In this document: positions 2,011-10,607 of the stretch, piece after piece
How the letters are laid out: every line of letters begins with the position of its first letter
How positions within the stretch are numbered: the stretch's first letter is position 1
From: Clostridia bacterium
GTDB taxonomy: Bacteria > Bacillota_A > Clostridia > Oscillospirales > Acutalibacteraceae
Direction: 5' to 3'
Length of the DNA stretch: 10,607 bases
Assembly: GCA_024699005.1 (NCBI GenBank)
Contig: JAILQN010000346.1
Location: forward strand, 1-10,607
Made by a program: the position numbers and the translations under genes
Notes under the pieces: generated by a model
What the model saw: only the letters and a program-made list of their open reading frames with translations
What the model was told of the DNA's origin: nothing
Database searches by the model: none

Positions 2011-2430
2011 CTATGCTTTATAAGTTTCGACGGCATCTGATACTCTGTCGGATAGATAATCATCAAACGAATCGAACGTCGATATCATATCTTGTTCGGT
2101 CCATGCCACAACTTTGCCGGTATTGCAGTCTAAACAGTAAACCTATTCGTCACAGTTTTCGATAATGACAAGATTATCCGGCAGGCCGTATTTGCGGTAA
2201 TCCAGAGTTTCGTAGACAAAAATCGGCTGACTGTTCTTTCCTATGCCTATTGTCTCGACTCCTCCGATCCCGTCGTGACCGAAATTGATAAGAAATTCAA
2301 TATACTGTTCGGGCAGTTTGACTCCTAATGCGTTTTGTGTATCGTTCAGTAAGGATTCGTCAAATATTGCGTGAGTAAAGTCGTTGGGTTTTTCGTGCAG
2401 TTTTATTTGTTGTTTTAATGTATCATTCAA
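2011..2430 (-). pseudogene. SMI1/KNR4-family protein broken by an in-frame amber codon
   Basis: The reading frame runs from TTG (2428-2430) through 95 residues to TAG (2143-2145), then continues in the same frame for 43 more codons to TAG (2011-2013). The front part shows the SMI1/KNR4 pattern: LLNDTQNALGVKLPEQYIEFL, then FGHDGIGGVETIGIG. The part after the amber codon reads VYCLDCNTGKVVAWTEQD, which is the usual end of the same domain (YCLD.. ..VV.W). Together they give about 139 codons, normal for the family, so one protein has been split. TAG could derive from TGG (Trp) by one transition. The TTG start has no visible Shine-Dalgarno site, and the frame stays open upstream to a TAA at 2464-2466, so the start is uncertain. 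Bacterial family members often act as immunity proteins to polymorphic toxins; no toxin gene is seen here. Suppression or strain variation is an alternative to true decay. Confidence 0.78.
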
Positions 2431-2689: not shown

Positions 2690-3829
2690 TTAAAACAGGT
2701 GATTATACAGCAGCATGAATCCAAGCAGCAGGAACAGAAAACTGAAATTCAGCAGCGAAAACCGACCGATGTAATAACCTGTCTTCCCCGGATTGTTTTT
2801 GACATATTCTCTGAAGGTGATCAGGCTGGCAAGAGAGGCAATCAGTGTGCCCACGCCGCCGATATTCACGCCAACCAGCAAATCCTTATAATTAGACGTG
2901 AATTGTGAAAGCAGAATTGCAGAAGGTACATTACTTATGACCTGACATGACAATGTGCTGAAAATCAAAGTGCTTTTTTCAAGCAGCGTGGAAAAGAAAT
3001 GGCGGAATGCTTCTATCCGAGCCATATTCCCGGAAAAAATGAAGAAAAAAACAAAAGTGCACAATAGTGGATAATCCACCATTTTCAGCGCCTTCCTGTC
3101 CGCAAAAAAAAGCGTGATTGGAATAACGATCAGTCCGATCCAATATGGTATGACGCGAAAAACGATAATGATCGAAAATGCGAACAGCGCCAGATACAGC
3201 ACAGTCCTTCCTGCCGGCAGACTGATTTCCGTGTTCTGGATTTCCATCGGTTCGTTCTTGACGGCAATCAGGCACACCACTGTGATCAGCAGCACGGCAA
3301 ACACAAAAGGCGGTGCCATAATACGGATAAACTCTCCTGTCGGTATATCAAATTTTGTATACAAAAACAAATTTTGAGGATTGCCGAAGGGAGTCAGCAT
3401 GCCGCCAAGATTCGCAGCAATGTTCTGCATGATGAAAGTGAACGCCATATACTTCTGCTTGCCGGTGGTTGTAAGCACAAGGAAACCGAGAGGCAAAAAT
3501 GTGAGCAGCGCCATATCATTCGCGATCAGCATTGAACCGATAAACGTTATATATACCAAAGCGACAATGCACAGGCGGGCATTCCTGAACATCTGAACGA
3601 TCTTATGCGCCAACATATAGAAAAAGTTAATGTTCTTAAGCGCACAAACTACAGAGAGAACGCAGAACAGGCAGGTCAGCGTTTTGTAATCAAAATAACC
3701 AAGATAGTGTTCATCCGGAGGTATAACAAAGGAAGTAATGATTGCAGCCAGCATGGCCACAATCATTACGACATTCTTTTTTGCGAAAGCCAAAAATGCT
3801 TGTTTAGAAACGCTTGTTTTTTCTTCCAT
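2690..3829 (-). CDS. SLC13/ArsB-like (ion transporter superfamily) permease
   Basis: A 379-residue very hydrophobic protein with about ten membrane segments. Two re-entrant-loop-like motifs typical of the CitMHS/ArsB/SLC13 ion transporter group are seen: NDMALLTFLPLGF (104-116) with NIAANLGGMLTPFGNPQNL (136-154) in the first half, and SNVPSAILLSQFT (299-311) with VGVNIGGVGTLIASLASL (319-336) in the second half, giving the expected internal symmetry. Family members move citrate, other di- or tricarboxylates, or arsenite across the cell membrane; substrate cannot be told here. An ATG 54 bases further upstream in frame exists, but it lies inside the preceding gene. The ATG at 3827-3829 is preferred because it overlaps the stop of the TIR-LRR gene by one base (TAATG) and has no strong ribosome site of its own, pointing to translational coupling. 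No clear terminator follows before the SMI1-like pseudogene. Confidence 0.88.
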   Translation of the reverse strand: MEEKTSVSKQAFLAFAKKNVVMIVAMLAAIITSFVIPPDEHYLGYFDYKTLTCLFCVLSVVCALKNINFFYMLAHKIVQMFRNARLCIVALVYITFIGSMLIANDMALLTFLPLGFLVLTTTGKQKYMAFTFIMQNIAANLGGMLTPFGNPQNLFLYTKFDIPTGEFIRIMAPPFVFAVLLITVVCLIAVKNEPMEIQNTEISLPAGRTVLYLALFAFSIIIVFRVIPYWIGLIVIPITLFFADRKALKMVDYPLLCTFVFFFIFSGNMARIEAFRHFFSTLLEKSTLIFSTLSCQVISNVPSAILLSQFTSNYKDLLVGVNIGGVGTLIASLASLITFREYVKNNPGKTGYYIGRFSLLNFSFLFLLLGFMLLYNHLF

Positions 3830-5466
3830 TATTCTATGATCTGTTCTTCGATCGGCTTGACCTTGATTCCGTTTCGTTGGCAATAAACACTGATCGTGGA
3901 ATCCGGTTCACAGTATACTGTTACCGTATTTTCACAGCCGTCGAACAGACCCCAGCCAAGGTCTTTCACAGAGTTGGGAATGACGACCCTTTCGAGGCTG
4001 ACACATCCGCGAAACGCGCAGTCGTCGATTTTTTCAACGCTGTCGGGAATGACGACTTCATCGAGCAGCGAGCAGTTGCAGAACGCGCCCTCTCCGATAG
4101 TGTAAACACTGTCCGGGATCGTGATGCGGTTCAGCTTTTTACACTCACAGAACGCCCAATCACAAATATTGGTAACACTGTCCGGAATGTCGTACTGTAC
4201 CTCCCTGCTTGCCGCGGGATATGCTATAAGTATTGACTTATTTTTATTAAACAGTACGTGATCTTGCCCGTCACGCTTGCTCGGCGAGGATTTGTAATAC
4301 TTATTCCGGCTTTCCACTCTGATGGATTTCAGCGATTCACAACCGCGGAACGGCGCATCATTTATATTGGAAAGTGAGGCAGGCAACACGATCTCAGTCA
4401 GGGAATGACAGTTTTTAAAAGCGCCTTTGCCGATTTTTTTGAGTCCTTCATGCAACTCAATCTTTGTCAGCGAGATACAGCCGTTGAATACGAGATCGTC
4501 GATTTTGTTTACTGTTTCGGGAACATAAATATCTTCCAGGGATACGCAGTCGGCAAAAGCACTTTCACCAAGGATCGAAAGATTGCTTGGAAGTTGTATG
4601 TGCTTCAGACTACGGCAGCTGTTAAATACACCTCCGTAAATTTCCATCAGGCCGTCCGGAAGGTCTACTTTATCCATAGACGAGCAGTTTTCAAATGCAC
4701 GTTCTCCGATCTTAATACAGGAATTCCTGATCTTAAGCGATTTGATGCTTGTGCAGTCGCGAAATGCGCTTTCGCAAATACGGATAGTTGATTCGGGGAT
4801 GTCCATCTCTTCAATATTAGTGCATCCGCGGAAGCTCTCGGTCCCGATTTCTTCCAATGTGGAAGGCAGGATAACGTGATGCAGTTTTTTTCTGTTTTTA
4901 AAAGCATCACTGTCGATGAAACGGATCCCTTCATCAATGGTGATTTCTTCGCCGTTGTCTTCGCATTTTTTCAGACGATCGTCTTCTGTCGTCAGACGAT
5001 CCATTGTAGCGGCAGGAAGATCCCGGACCATAGAGCGTATCAGCCGGTCCATATTCTCCGCAGTACTATGGTGCGTATTTGCAAGCAAGATCGCAAACGC
5101 GGGCGGTATTTCAGAATCATCGAGGAAAATGGGGTACAAGCGCTTTTTGTTCTCACGGGCGACAATGATCTCCATGCCGCAGAAAGGAGACGCCATTGAA
5201 TTCTTTGATACAAAAAGAATCACTGCCTCCGCTTTTTCAATACGATGACGCAGCTCATCTCTGAAATCGTTCCCGTTCTCACAGGATTCATCGTACCAGA
5301 TACGATACTTTCGATCGTAAAGCAAATCCAGAATAGGATATACCATATCGGTATCCCTGTGTGAATAACTGACAAACAGATATGGTTCTTTCCCGCTATA
5401 AGCCTCAAATTTTGTACTTATATTGGCATTGTCCGGAATTTGTTCCACGTTTTTCTTTGATGCCAT
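3829..5466 (-). CDS. TIR-domain protein with BspA/TpLRR-type leucine-rich repeats
   Basis: A 545-residue protein without signal peptide or membrane segment, so cytoplasmic. Residues about 28-150 are a TIR domain: YLFVSYSHRDTD (29-40, box 1), YRIWYDESCENGNDF (54-68) and VILFVSKNSMASPFCGMEI (82-100). E99 falls in the SxxFCxxE position of the catalytic glutamate of NAD-cleaving TIR enzymes, so NADase activity is plausible but inferred. Residues about 172-520 hold some 13 repeats of about 23 residues with the pattern (I/V)xIPxSVxxIGxxAFxGCxSL, the LRR_5/BspA type; after the eighth there is an insert of about 45 residues (NKYYKSSPSK... LFNKNKSILIAYPA) often seen in BspA proteins. The start at ATG 5464-5466 is chosen over TTG/ATG codons at 5500-5505 because the promoter -10 box overlaps those, and GAGGGG lies seven bases before this ATG. 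The downstream permease overlaps its stop. Such TIR plus ligand-recognition layouts suggest a sensor/effector, possibly in defence; this is inference. Confidence 0.9.
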   Translation of the reverse strand: MASKKNVEQIPDNANISTKFEAYSGKEPYLFVSYSHRDTDMVYPILDLLYDRKYRIWYDESCENGNDFRDELRHRIEKAEAVILFVSKNSMASPFCGMEIIVARENKKRLYPIFLDDSEIPPAFAILLANTHHSTAENMDRLIRSMVRDLPAATMDRLTTEDDRLKKCEDNGEEITIDEGIRFIDSDAFKNRKKLHHVILPSTLEEIGTESFRGCTNIEEMDIPESTIRICESAFRDCTSIKSLKIRNSCIKIGERAFENCSSMDKVDLPDGLMEIYGGVFNSCRSLKHIQLPSNLSILGESAFADCVSLEDIYVPETVNKIDDLVFNGCISLTKIELHEGLKKIGKGAFKNCHSLTEIVLPASLSNINDAPFRGCESLKSIRVESRNKYYKSSPSKRDGQDHVLFNKNKSILIAYPAASREVQYDIPDSVTNICDWAFCECKKLNRITIPDSVYTIGEGAFCNCSLLDEVVIPDSVEKIDDCAFRGCVSLERVVIPNSVKDLGWGLFDGCENTVTVYCEPDSTISVYCQRNGIKVKPIEEQIIE

Positions 5467-5472
5467 ATCTTT

Positions 5473-5478
5473 CCCCTC
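5473..5478 (-). promoter_or_regulatory. Shine-Dalgarno site that fixes the TIR-LRR start
   Basis: On the - strand GAGGGG stands six bases before ATG at 5464-5466. No comparable site precedes the earlier in-frame TTG or ATG codons, which also lie at or upstream of the predicted transcription start. Confidence 0.65.
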
Positions 5479-5493
5479 TGACTTTTTTTGTTT

Positions 5494-5522
5494 AGTATAC
5501 ATCAAAAACTCGAGGTTGTCAA
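5494..5522 (-). promoter_or_regulatory. Near-consensus sigma-A promoter of the TIR-LRR/permease operon
   Basis: On the - strand TTGACA (5517-5522, 6 of 6) is separated by exactly 17 bases from TATACT (5494-5499, 5 of 6). The sequence upstream of the -35 (about 5523-5550) is made of A and T tracts, like an UP element. The spacer holds the palindrome CTCGAG. Predicted start of the RNA is near 5487, giving a leader of about 20 bases before the ATG. Confidence 0.82.
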
Positions 5523-7402: not shown

Positions 7403-7435
7403 GCGATTGTGATTCAATATTATGGAAGTGAATTT

Positions 7436-8659
7436 ATGATACAAAGAAAAGAATATCTGGAACAGCTTATACAATGGAAAGATAAACAGGTTATAAAAGT
7501 CGTTACCGGTATCAGACGGTGCGGTAAATCTACGCTTCTTGAATTGTTTCAGGAACATCTGAAAACGACCGGTGTAACTGATGATCAGCTTATTTCCGTT
7601 AATTTTGAGAATCTGGAATATGAGACATTGCTGGATTACAAAGCGTTATATAACTATGTTATTAAACGGCTCCATAAAACCAAAACCACTTATATTTTTC
7701 TTGACGAGATACAGCAGGTCGATGATTTTCAGAAAGCGGTCGACAGTCTGTACGTACAGAAGAATACGGACTTATATATAACCGGATCGAATGCTTATCT
7801 GTTATCCGGAGAACTTGCGACTTTGCTTTCAGGCAGATATATAGAGATCAATATGCTTCCTCTGTCGTTTTCCGAATATCGCGCAACAAACGATTTCGCC
7901 GATAATGACAGTCTTTTCGCCGATTATATGAAATACGGCGGAATGCCTTACGTGGCGGCGATCGGCAAAGATGAGAATATGATCGATACGTATCTTGAGG
8001 GGATATATAATACGATTATAGTCAAGGATATCGAGGAACGTCAGAACCGAAAAGAAAGTGACCCCGACAAACGAAAAATAACCGATATTTCTCTGCTTAA
8101 AAACATTTCAAAGTTCCTTGCCGGTTCCGTCGGCAGTCCGATTTCCGTAAAACGTATCACCGATTATGTCGTCTCAGGCGGAAGAAAAGTATCACAGAAC
8201 ACGGTCGACGACTATATAGAGGCCTTGACAGAACCGTATATCTTTTACCGGGCGGAACGTTATGACGTCCAGGGTAAACAGCTTCTGAAACAGAATCAGA
8301 AACTGTATATCGTCGATCTGGGGCTTCGCAGGCATCTGCTCGCCAGACATAATTACGATCTCGGTTATTCTCTTGAAAATATAGTATTCTTTGAACTGAA
8401 GCGAAGAGGTTACATCGTCAATATCGGCAAAGTCGGAATGACGGAAATAGATTTTGTCGCGGTAAAAGGTGACAGTGTCCGGTATTTTCAGGTATCCGCT
8501 TCCGTGGTCGACGAAGCCACGTTCCAAAGGGAGATCTCTCCGCTTCGGAAAATCAATGATAATTACCCGAAAACGATATTGACTCTTGATAAGTTCACGA
8601 CAGGCAATTACGATGGGATAGAAGTTGTGAACGTGATAGACTGGCTGCTGCAGAAATAA
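7436..8659 (+). CDS. AAA-family ATPase with C-terminal DUF4143 domain
   Basis: A 407-residue protein of the AAA_14/DUF4143 group. Residues 20-150 are the ATPase core: Walker A GIRRCGKST (25-33), Walker B YIFLDE (86-91), and the sensor-like run YITGSNAYLLSGELATLLSGRY (two short parts, 114-135). Residues about 210-290 form a winged-helix-like segment (ISKFLAGSVGSPISV... NTVDDYIEAL), and 310-360 a nuclease-like fold with E314 (ENIVFFEL), EIDFVAVK (337-344) and FQVS (351-354); glutamine stands where active PD-(D/E)XK enzymes usually have an acidic residue, as is common in this family. Role unknown; such ATPases are often multicopy accessory genes in gut bacteria. ATG 7436 is chosen because GGAAGTGA precedes it, homologues begin MI.RKEYL, and the promoter lies just upstream. 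GC is visibly lower at its front (about 33% in 7621-7680 by hand count), suggesting transfer. Confidence 0.9.
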   Translation: MIQRKEYLEQLIQWKDKQVIKVVTGIRRCGKSTLLELFQEHLKTTGVTDDQLISVNFENLEYETLLDYKALYNYVIKRLHKTKTTYIFLDEIQQVDDFQKAVDSLYVQKNTDLYITGSNAYLLSGELATLLSGRYIEINMLPLSFSEYRATNDFADNDSLFADYMKYGGMPYVAAIGKDENMIDTYLEGIYNTIIVKDIEERQNRKESDPDKRKITDISLLKNISKFLAGSVGSPISVKRITDYVVSGGRKVSQNTVDDYIEALTEPYIFYRAERYDVQGKQLLKQNQKLYIVDLGLRRHLLARHNYDLGYSLENIVFFELKRRGYIVNIGKVGMTEIDFVAVKGDSVRYFQVSASVVDEATFQREISPLRKINDNYPKTILTLDKFTTGNYDGIEVVNVIDWLLQK

Positions 8660-8714
8660 AATCAGCGGTATCGTCCTGGATCATGGCACGGCGGCGTATG
8701 GGGAGTGAGCTGAA

Positions 8715-9488
8715 TTGAATGATATTTACGGCTGGTTCACAGTCGACAGACTCGACGCGCAGACGTTCGTAATAAGCGAGTACAGGCATTGGGAAGAAAC
8801 TCACTGTTATCTTTTATGCGGACGGGATAAAGCCGTTCTTATCGATACCGGTCTGGGCGTATCGGATATCGGAAGCATCGTTGCCGGTCTGACCTCTCTG
8901 CCTGTCACGGTGTTCACCACGCACGTCCACTGGGATCATATCGGCGGACACGGACGTTTTGATAACATTGCCGTGCATGAAGCGGAGAAGGATCTGCTTT
9001 CCGGCAGGTTTCCGCTGCCGCTGCGGGAGGTTAAGGAACAGCTCGCGAAAGTTCCATGTGATTTTCCGGAAGGATTCGATATCGGTTCGTACAGGATCTT
9101 TCAGGGAGAACCGCAGATACTTCTGCACGACGGCGACATCTTTGATCTGGGCGGGCGAGCGGTACGGGTCATACATACGCCCGGACACTCTCCGGGGCAC
9201 TGCTGTTTTTATGAGCCCGAAAGAAAATGGCTGTATTCCGGAGATCTGATCTATAAGGGCTGTCTTGACGCTTTTTATCCTTCGACCGATCCGCGGCTTT
9301 TTTACCGTTCCGTAAAATGCTTAAGGGAATATGATATCGGACGGGTTCTGCCCGGGCATCACGATATCGATATTCCTGTCTCATTGATCGGCGATATCGA
9401 AGCCGGATTCGCAAAGCTGGATAAGAATGGGCTGCTGAAACAGGGGAGCGGGCTGTTCGATTTCCGAGACTTTCAGCTCAGAATATGA
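8715..9488 (+). CDS. Metallo-beta-lactamase-fold hydrolase
   Basis: A 257-residue MBL-fold protein. The metal ligands are all present: HVHWDH (H70, H72, D74, H75), TPGHS (H158), SGD (D177) and PGHH (H215), so two metal ions and hydrolase activity are expected. The N-terminal strand YLLCGRDKAVLIDTG is typical. The family includes glyoxalase II-like thioesterases, lactonases and phosphodiesterases; the substrate cannot be told. No signal peptide. The start codon is TTG at 8715, the only possible start before residue 10, because a stop codon (8706-8708) lies in frame just upstream and GGGGAGTGA (8700-8708) stands at the right distance. It follows the ATPase by 55 bases with no terminator seen and may be co-transcribed. 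The next gene starts 30 bases later. Confidence 0.92.
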   Translation: MNDIYGWFTVDRLDAQTFVISEYRHWEETHCYLLCGRDKAVLIDTGLGVSDIGSIVAGLTSLPVTVFTTHVHWDHIGGHGRFDNIAVHEAEKDLLSGRFPLPLREVKEQLAKVPCDFPEGFDIGSYRIFQGEPQILLHDGDIFDLGGRAVRVIHTPGHSPGHCCFYEPERKWLYSGDLIYKGCLDAFYPSTDPRLFYRSVKCLREYDIGRVLPGHHDIDIPVSLIGDIEAGFAKLDKNGLLKQGSGLFDFRDFQLRI

Positions 9489-9518
9489 ACGGCAGCTCCC
9501 GGTTCTTTTGGTGAAAAT

Positions 9519-10607
9519 ATGAAAAAGATAATTTCCCTTTTCATGTGCGCGGCGCTGGTATGCTGCGCGGCGGTCCCGGCCTTTGCCGGCGACGGCGGCT
9601 GCGACTGCGGATTCTCTCCGGTCATTTACGTGGGGCCTCTCGGCTGCACTCCGATCGTCAGGGACGAGGGTGCGGAAAACGAGCAGCAGCTTTGGAAGAC
9701 CGATACGAAATTCCTGCTTGCCAATCTGAAAGACGCCATGCCGGATATAACGAAAGCCCTGCTGACGCGCAGCGCCGATAAACTCGGGGACGCTCTTTCG
9801 GAATTTGTCAAAGCCTGTTTCGGGGATCTCGCGCTTGACAGCGAAGGAAGATCGAAGGATAACGTCACGACTCCGGAACTGAACGCGCCGGAAGGCGACA
9901 GACATGGTCCCGACAGCGACTACTATTTCGACTACGATTTCAGGCTCGATCCCTATGAACACGCTGACAGACTGCACGGATTCATAGAGCAGGTAAAAGC
10001 CCTGACGGGGCACGACAGCGTGAAACTGAAATGCTCGAGCATGGGCGGCGTCGTGCTCTCCGCGTATCTTGACAGATACGGCTGTGACGGTATCGACGTT
10101 ATCATCTGCCGCTGCTGTCCTCTTTGGGGGACCGCAGTCGCGGGCGAAGCTTTCACCGGCAGGATTGAGCTGAACGCCGCCGCGCTCACGTGCTACGGAG
10201 AGGACGCGATTCCGTTCCTTGAGACGGGATTCGCCGACGATTTCATCGAGGGCTCGCTCTACGCCCTTCTCGACGTCCTCAAAGGAGCCGGGATAATCGA
10301 CGCTTTATGCGCTCTCGGGGACAGAGTCATAAAGGACGTCGGGGACAAAGTATACGAGCAGGCGCTTATCCCGGTTTTCGGAACGCTCCCCGGGCTGTGG
10401 GCGTTCGTTCCCGAAGAATACTTCGACGAAGCGGTCGAATTCATGAACGTGCCTTCCGGAGGCGGACTTCACGATAAGATATTCGCCTACAGGAACGCCA
10501 TGGCGGATATCGCGGACAACCTCAGAGCCGCGAAAAACGCCGGCGTCAGGATCTGCATGATCTGCGGATACAACGTGCAGAGGACGCCGTTTGTCATGCT
10601 CTGGAAG
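9519..10607 (+). CDS. Secreted alpha/beta hydrolase (lipase/LCAT-like), 3' end outside the window
   Basis: The frame is open from ATG 9519 to the last base (363 codons, no stop). MKKIISLFMCAALVCCAAVPAFA is interrupted nowhere: a lysine pair, a hydrophobic core and AFA before GDGG form a clear type I signal peptide (about 23 residues, shown in two parts: MKKIISLF and CAAVPAFA). Later, YYFDYDFRLDPYEHADRL (about 138-155), then TGHDSVKLKCSSMGGVVLSAYL (two adjoining parts around 163-184) is the nucleophile elbow of a lipase-like enzyme, with S174 as the likely nucleophile. The usual first glycine of GxSxG is C172 here. The YDxRLDP pattern before the elbow resembles lecithin:cholesterol acyltransferase-like esterases of Clostridia. 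The remaining catalytic Asp and His would lie at or beyond the end. GGTGA (9510-9514) precedes ATG by four bases. An extracellular or cell-surface esterase is likely; substrate unknown. Confidence 0.8.
   Translation, partial: MKKIISLFMCAALVCCAAVPAFAGDGGCDCGFSPVIYVGPLGCTPIVRDEGAENEQQLWKTDTKFLLANLKDAMPDITKALLTRSADKLGDALSEFVKACFGDLALDSEGRSKDNVTTPELNAPEGDRHGPDSDYYFDYDFRLDPYEHADRLHGFIEQVKALTGHDSVKLKCSSMGGVVLSAYLDRYGCDGIDVIICRCCPLWGTAVAGEAFTGRIELNAAALTCYGEDAIPFLETGFADDFIEGSLYALLDVLKGAGIIDALCALGDRVIKDVGDKVYEQALIPVFGTLPGLWAFVPEEYFDEAVEFMNVPSGGGLHDKIFAYRNAMADIADNLRAAKNAGVRICMICGYNVQRTPFVMLWK

Follow-up and report, generated by a model that had tools for sequence, protein, structure and literature searches.

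Why a TIR domain fused to leucine-rich repeats (LRR) should be encoded together with an ion permease is the question raised by a 10,607-nucleotide contig of a Clostridia bacterium (JAILQN010000346.1, assembly GCA_024699005.1), the whole of which is referred to here as the window. We consider it about an even chance (roughly 0.5) that the window encodes two parts, the sensor-enzyme and ion transport, of a membrane signalling system based on TIR. At related loci the pair has a neighbour bearing an RyR domain, and this gene pair of gut Clostridia together with its RyR-bearing neighbour suggests a bacterial sensor-to-ion-channel pathway. The observations behind this reading are gene linkage, domain content, the folds of predicted models, invariant RyR ligand residues and co-occurrence.

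Both genes lie on the minus strand. The TIR-LRR gene (3829 to 5466) encodes 545 amino acids between an ATG start and a TAA stop; according to a check of the open reading frames (ORFs), the ATG at 5466 is a likelier start than a TTG at 5505. The TIR domain covers residues 18–155 (5002 to 5415, minus strand) and the BspA-type repeats residues 181–520 (3907 to 4926, minus strand), with Pfam scores of 2e-18 for TIR_2 and 3.7e-81 for LRR_5. The initial annotation had described a cytoplasmic protein in which the TIR domain is joined to about 13 BspA-type repeats without an intervening nucleoside triphosphatase (NTPase) module, and this description held in all its parts: 11 regular xF..C cores were counted by pattern and two looser ones by eye; Pfam found only TIR and LRR families in the protein and no NTPase between them; and a simple hydropathy scan found no membrane segment, which fits a cytoplasmic protein. 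The candidate catalytic Glu of an NADase site, correctly placed at residue 99 (codon 5170 to 5172, minus strand), lies within SPFCGME and is the same in 17/17 aligned homologues, which were picked from the best 120. It aligns, at weak E-values, with the Glu of SSWCLDEL (3jrn) and that of DWTNYEL (AbTIR chains), both of which we take to be the catalytic Glu. In structure comparison the predicted TIR model looks like TIRs that cleave nicotinamide adenine dinucleotide (NAD), which favours the NAD site that had been proposed. Residues 1–190 matched 637 proteins at E ≤ 1e-3.

The permease gene (2690 to 3829, minus strand) encodes a 379-residue member of the CitMHS/ion-transporter superfamily (PF03600, 1.3e-24; 87.3 bits, above the gathering cut-off of 31.9). 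At its junction with the TIR-LRR gene (3827 to 3831), the minus strand reads AGAATAATGGAAG, so that TAA (3831–3829) and ATG (3829–3827) have one base in common, confirming the TAATG overlap annotated earlier. Eight merged hydrophobic stretches, several of them long enough for two helices, were seen in a hydropathy scan of the permease, which the initial annotation had described as having ten helices. At least 7999 permease homologues were scored, and no solved structure was related to it by sequence at E ≤ 1e-3. One 490-residue homologue (P0122) has its N-terminal part repeated, perhaps through an assembly artefact.

The pairing of the two genes is conserved among relatives. Scanning one genome per species yielded 49 loci, of which 30 (L001–L029 and L031) were taken as close relatives, L030 being left out at 33% identity; for the permease count, 26 of these were readable, as the contig end was too near in L015, L021, L026 and L027. 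A CitMHS permease lies directly downstream on the same strand in 20 of the 26, an ArsB-type permease directly upstream in four (L011, L023–L025), and a permease on neither side in two (L018, L029), the permease of the L018 genome being on a different contig. Adjacency had been preset as the test of the pairing, and 24 of 26 readable loci thus adjoin a permease of the same superfamily. Fourteen of the 20 downstream permeases are of the window's subtype (71–77% identical) and six are at 43–48%. The one-base overlap is repeated in 11 of these 20 relatives; in eight, the nearest ATG is 5 to 23 bases on, and L022 has a broken TIR-LRR frame. Of the 24 TIR-LRR genomes with a permease match, 23 have a single copy. 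Trees of the two proteins, made without L061 and L074 (copies of L003 and L006), conflict, many of their forks being weak: L013, with a 72% permease, clusters (100/100) with L015, L016 and L020, the last two of which have a 45% permease, and L011, with its ArsB-type permease, falls inside the main TIR-LRR clade. This disagreement indicates that related sensors have been paired with different permeases. Two of the 30 best permease loci were TIR-LRR loci; the other 28, inspected by eye over 1.5-kb flanks, had no set-wide common neighbour, small groups of relatives sharing some. In view of the conserved linkage and these solo-permease flanks, chance adjacency of the two genes was rejected. In L001, a P-type (E1-E2) ATPase gene (12906–15470, plus strand) directly follows the permease. 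The IMG/VR viral set contained three loci with likeness to the LRR part only.

What might receive a TIR-made signal is suggested by a third gene. In 16 of the 30 related loci one of the neighbouring genes encodes a membrane protein that combines a tandem RCK gating ring with a C-terminal RyR domain. The two-part system of the initial annotation therefore stands as to the conserved pair and is incomplete in that many relatives add this RCK-RyR protein. An RCK-RyR match was found in 24 of the 30 TIR-LRR genomes, as eight of the 14 without an adjacent gene have one elsewhere. The predicted model has two RCK-like Rossmann domains behind membrane helices. A 2026 preprint (PMC13232231) reports phage RyR domains that bind TIR-made 2'/3' cyclic ADP-ribose (cADPR) or cleave it, and names four ligand residues, H, W, H and D. 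These residues (H545, W548, H570 and D587 in alignment A5) are present in 46/46 aligned partners, with a spacing of 3/22/17 in 24, 3/27/17 in 20 and 3/38/20 in two; that of the phage protein is 3/22/17. The RCK-RyR protein is a more plausible signal receiver than the permease is, and the idea of the permease as the only downstream target was weakened once these genes appeared. RyR-only proteins of 93–94 residues are also encoded beside RCK-RyR genes in L132 (6919–7203, minus strand) and L140 (9791–10072, plus strand), with PF02026 scores of 5.5e-39 and 3.6e-38; they are possible bacterial signal buffers or hydrolases.

An association between TIR and RyR proteins was also seen beyond true TIR-LRR loci. 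Among the 63 genomes of G003's family, RCK-RyR was present in 5/5 genomes with a TIR match vs 3/58 others (Fisher p 8e-6), and in a sample of its order in 6/7 vs 18/288 (Fisher p 1e-6), where TIR matches were taken at E ≤ 1e-20, true TIR-LRR accounted for only 2/5 and 2/7 of the TIR-matching genomes, kinship was uncorrected and the two samples overlap. At most four RCK-RyR candidates per genome were scored here; G078, one of the six, matches in the RyR part only, and some other matches are partial. Fourteen RCK-RyR neighbourhoods from genomes without true TIR-LRR were also inspected (L116, L124, L129–L132, L134–L141). A different TIR gene stood beside RCK-RyR in three of them, encoding a TIR+LRR_4 protein in L131, a TIR-only protein (together with the RyR-only protein) in L132, and a TIR protein with a weakly scored beta-propeller in L137. 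No TIR was found by one profile among the ORFs listed for the other 11, three of which are on short contigs, nor by one profile in any of the six unlinked RCK-RyR stretches of TIR-LRR genomes (L133, L142–L146).

The same association was met in a second phylum. On a Pelolinea contig (L038, genome G360), an RyR protein (2.8e-17) is encoded directly before a TIR+LRR_4 protein; this contig had been found by a TIR scan, and Anaerolineae were picked because it belongs there. RyR occurs in 12 of 249 Anaerolineae genomes (22 matches), and at eight of the 22, in six genomes, a TIR_2 gene starts at most 500 nt downstream on the same strand, the chance expectation being 0.005 (within 700 nt). Without G360, the pairs number 7/21 matches and 5/11 genomes. 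Of the eight paired matches, four belong to TrkA_N+RyR proteins, two to RelA/SpoT-TPR-LSDAT-RyR proteins, one to a protein that has RyR along with weak AAA matches and one to the Pelolinea protein. Five Anaerolineae RCK-RyR proteins score 58–65 bits for PF02026 (gathering score 27.4), and L182 encodes a K+ channel (8562–10559, minus strand) in which Ion_trans_2 (with a TVGYGD filter), TrkA_N and RyR are all above cut-off, with a TIR gene some 3 kb away on the opposite strand. These proteins support the RCK-RyR architecture independently of the weak Clostridia scores given below. In 14 control genomes, PF02026 was found in none and TIR_2 in three; in a planctomycetote (G361), RyR and TIR are on one contig about 14 kb apart. 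The RelA/SpoT-TPR-LSDAT (SLOG in TRPM)-RyR genes, in L180 (5985–8474, minus strand) and L181 (3268–5757, plus strand), stand directly before TIR genes. We propose, tentatively, a TIR to RyR ion-channel axis in which cADPR isomers would open RCK channels via RyR, with the permease as co-effector, and which would recur in Bacillota (TIR-LRR, RCK-RyR, CitMHS/ArsB permease) and Chloroflexota (TIR beside TrkA_N-RyR and K+-channel-RyR genes).

In the mechanism that we envisage, catalysis, ligand, gating, direction of flux, trigger and purpose are what we infer: the LRR surface would sense a conserved, probably internal, cue; the cue would activate the TIR domain, which would convert NAD+ to a signal of the ADP-ribose type (a cADPR isomer or ADP-ribose); an RCK-gated channel-like protein, whose gene adjoins TIR-LRR in about half of the relatives and is at another genomic site in others, would read the signal at the membrane via its C-terminal RyR domain; and channel flux, together with the translationally coupled CitMHS/ArsB-type permease, would alter ion balance, whether as a response to stress or to stop a phage, the permease adding to or balancing the channel flux. 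A membrane protein might thus answer the signal or disrupt ion balance, much as the initial annotation had supposed.

Several observations weigh against this reading. For the window itself, the receiver step is an extrapolation from relatives, because there is no RyR gene within its 10.6 kb; a profile search of the window gave no match to RCK-RyR, tubulin-type, vWA-type, C4 or C5 proteins. Six of the 30 TIR-LRR genomes, as bins of unstated completeness, have no RCK-RyR match, and in the eight genomes with an unlinked one, some matches are distant, down to 2.7e-72. The Clostridia RyR domains score weakly: of six partners scanned with Pfam, five reached 17–23 bits for PF02026 against a cut-off of 27.4 and that of L012 had no match, and 7 of the 120 homologues listed carry PF02026. 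Inspection by eye revealed no K+ filter motif in the Clostridia RCK-RyR protein, and RyR domains may cleave the signal instead of being gated by it. In Anaerolineae, 14 of the 22 RyR matches lack a TIR within 500 nt, two of the 12 RyR-bearing genomes have no TIR match, and in L181 a TrkA_N/RCK gene (69–2192) before a TIR gene has no RyR match. Finally, the permease occurs in 159 of 295 genomes of G003's order (E ≤ 1e-40) and true TIR-LRR in two; being without TIR-LRR in most genomes, the permease has a role of its own.

Three other explanations were weighed against a TIR-to-membrane signalling system. That the two genes suffice by themselves, the permease being the effector, which the TIR product or LRR contact would open or block, and RCK-RyR a separate add-on, seems to us not very likely. 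It would account for the permease being the most constant neighbour (20/26 downstream, 4/26 upstream), with RCK-RyR adjacent in 16/30 loci and unseen in 6/30 genomes, and for the window and eight loci (L006, L008, L013, L014, L017, L019, L028 and L031) having the pair without an adjacent RCK-RyR gene; the one-base overlap also suggests matched synthesis. However, Pfam, PADLOC and NCBIfam scans recognised no nucleotide-binding domain in the permease, its subtypes swap for each other, which speaks against a specific ligand site, and it is far more widespread than TIR-LRR (159 vs 2 of the 295 order genomes).

This same abundance of the permease, usually present once per genome and single-copy in 23/24 TIR-LRR genomes, can be read as a sign of housekeeping, in which TIR-LRR would regulate ion or anion transport by osmotic, pH or nutrient state and the TIR domain could serve as a scaffold or as a slow NADase. 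We regard this as unlikely, given the patchy presence of TIR-LRR (2/295 order genomes), and since RyR-TIR pairing in two phyla and phage RyR proteins that counter TIR signals (PMC13232231) are suggestive of signalling of an immune type; some relatives also adjoin vWA/tubulin genes like those of a predicted conflict system. It nevertheless agrees with the P-type ATPase gene after the permease in L001, with the lack of a defence cluster among 90 neighbour ORFs, and with LRR columns that are as conserved as those of TIR (mean column identity 0.85 vs 0.88 over 17 sequences). Mere hitch-hiking, with genes that are neighbours by descent and have only transcription in common, would be compatible with loci coming from related bacteria and with permeases found without TIR-LRR, but we consider it very improbable: the 28 solo permease loci have no set-wide common neighbour, and the changes of permease subtype and side among related TIR-LRRs would need repeated re-pairing.

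An anti-phage role may be inferred from TIR signal logic, from phage RyR proteins aimed at such signals and from patchy presence. Against defence speak the commonness of the permease gene, neighbours without a defence island, and an LRR part as conserved as TIR, which is unlike an arms-race sensor. The initial annotation had suggested counting known defence genes nearby: in a PADLOC scan of 90 of 129 selected neighbour ORFs (39 omitted, six of them antisense to core genes), 21 families matched at E ≤ 1e-10, each in one or two proteins and with no control set, and such scattered matches were not taken as support for a defence island. In the window, the sole other PADLOC match is an AAA_14/DUF4143 protein (7409–8659, plus strand) corresponding to the candidate PDC-S01 (PDLC04787, 3.2e-156). 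Behind the permease lies a short SUKH_5 (SMI1/KNR4) ORF of 95 residues with a TTG start (2143–2430, minus strand), which may be a remnant.

Some relatives belong to larger gene runs. In L007 and L012 a single run encodes all or most of a set made up of a vWA-type membrane protein, a Tubulin_2-type protein and two other large proteins, and part of this set is found in L003, L009, L010 and L022. RCK-RyR without TIR-LRR also occurs inside such runs (L129, L130, L138). Pfam gave no match for the C5-type and vWA-type proteins of L012 and only Transglut_core, below cut-off, for the C4-type protein of L003. Single runs of vWA-type, Tubulin_2-type and large unassigned proteins were seen in L012 (7392–15876), L007, L022 and L138, and a planctomycetote stretch (L035) contains TIR, vWA and Tubulin_2 genes, its genome having three RyR matches.

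If the axis is true, bacteria would possess an equivalent, and perhaps a forerunner, of the long-debated action of cADPR on animal ryanodine receptors, and the RyDEP-like RyR proteins of phages could be captured receptor domains. A TIR-made nucleotide would then directly control bacterial ion flux, which to our knowledge is not the case for any described bacterial TIR effector. The domain common to animal ryanodine receptors and phage anti-Thoeris proteins would gain a bacterial signalling partner, cADPR action on RyR domains would become testable with small bacterial proteins, and a role would be offered for the gut Clostridia TIR-LRR family, for which none was found in print in the open-licence PubMed Central literature.

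Among known systems, the pair resembles Thoeris in its predicted NADase-like TIR fold with a Glu at the catalytic place, in being paired with another protein and, through the relatives' partner, in having a domain family shown to bind 2'/3'cADPR. Thoeris effectors are SLOG/SIR2, Macro-TM or caspase proteins, whereas here LRR is fused to TIR and the partner is an ion permease, with RCK-RyR added in relatives. Thoeris models matched TIR-LRR weakly, the best ThsB match in PADLOC reaching 7.7e-7 (26.8 bits) and ThcB4 in NCBIfam scoring 17.1 against a cut-off of 220, and no adjacent effector has a known Thoeris domain, the permease having CitMHS only and no PADLOC match; the pair is therefore not classed as Thoeris. 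That no described system has this pair, as first annotated, agrees with the open-licence PubMed Central literature, where no report of it or of RCK-RyR beside TIR was found; other works may name an RyR partner.

The vWA/tubulin theme of some relatives, judged from those genes alone, is like that of GAP1-N2 systems (Kaur et al. 2020, PMC7159879), although the window has none of these genes and the term RyR does not occur in the accessible text of that paper. RyDEP and the phage RyR proteins belong to the same PF02026 family and have the same four ligand residues; in the preprint text available (PMC13232231), from which the words "neighborhood", "adjacent" and "membrane" are absent, they are phage counter-defence enzymes or sponges, whereas here the domain is the C-terminal part of bacterial RCK membrane proteins beside TIR. 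The permease is like CitMHS/SLC13, ArsB and NhaD permeases in scoring above cut-off for PF03600; no ArsB family matched it in Pfam (E ≤ 0.01) or NCBIfam, and the NhaD equivalog reached 25.5 bits against a cut-off of 80. As in TIR-NLR/STAND receptors, TIR and leucine-rich repeats are in one protein without membrane helices, but Pfam found no NTPase module in the window's TIR-LRR. Finally, the two predicted Rossmann domains behind the helices of the RCK-RyR protein, whose Anaerolineae counterparts have TrkA_N above cut-off, appear like those of RCK channels and transporters (CASTOR/DMI1, GsuK, KtrAB and TrkHA), to which this partner adds a C-terminal RyR domain and a neighbouring TIR gene.

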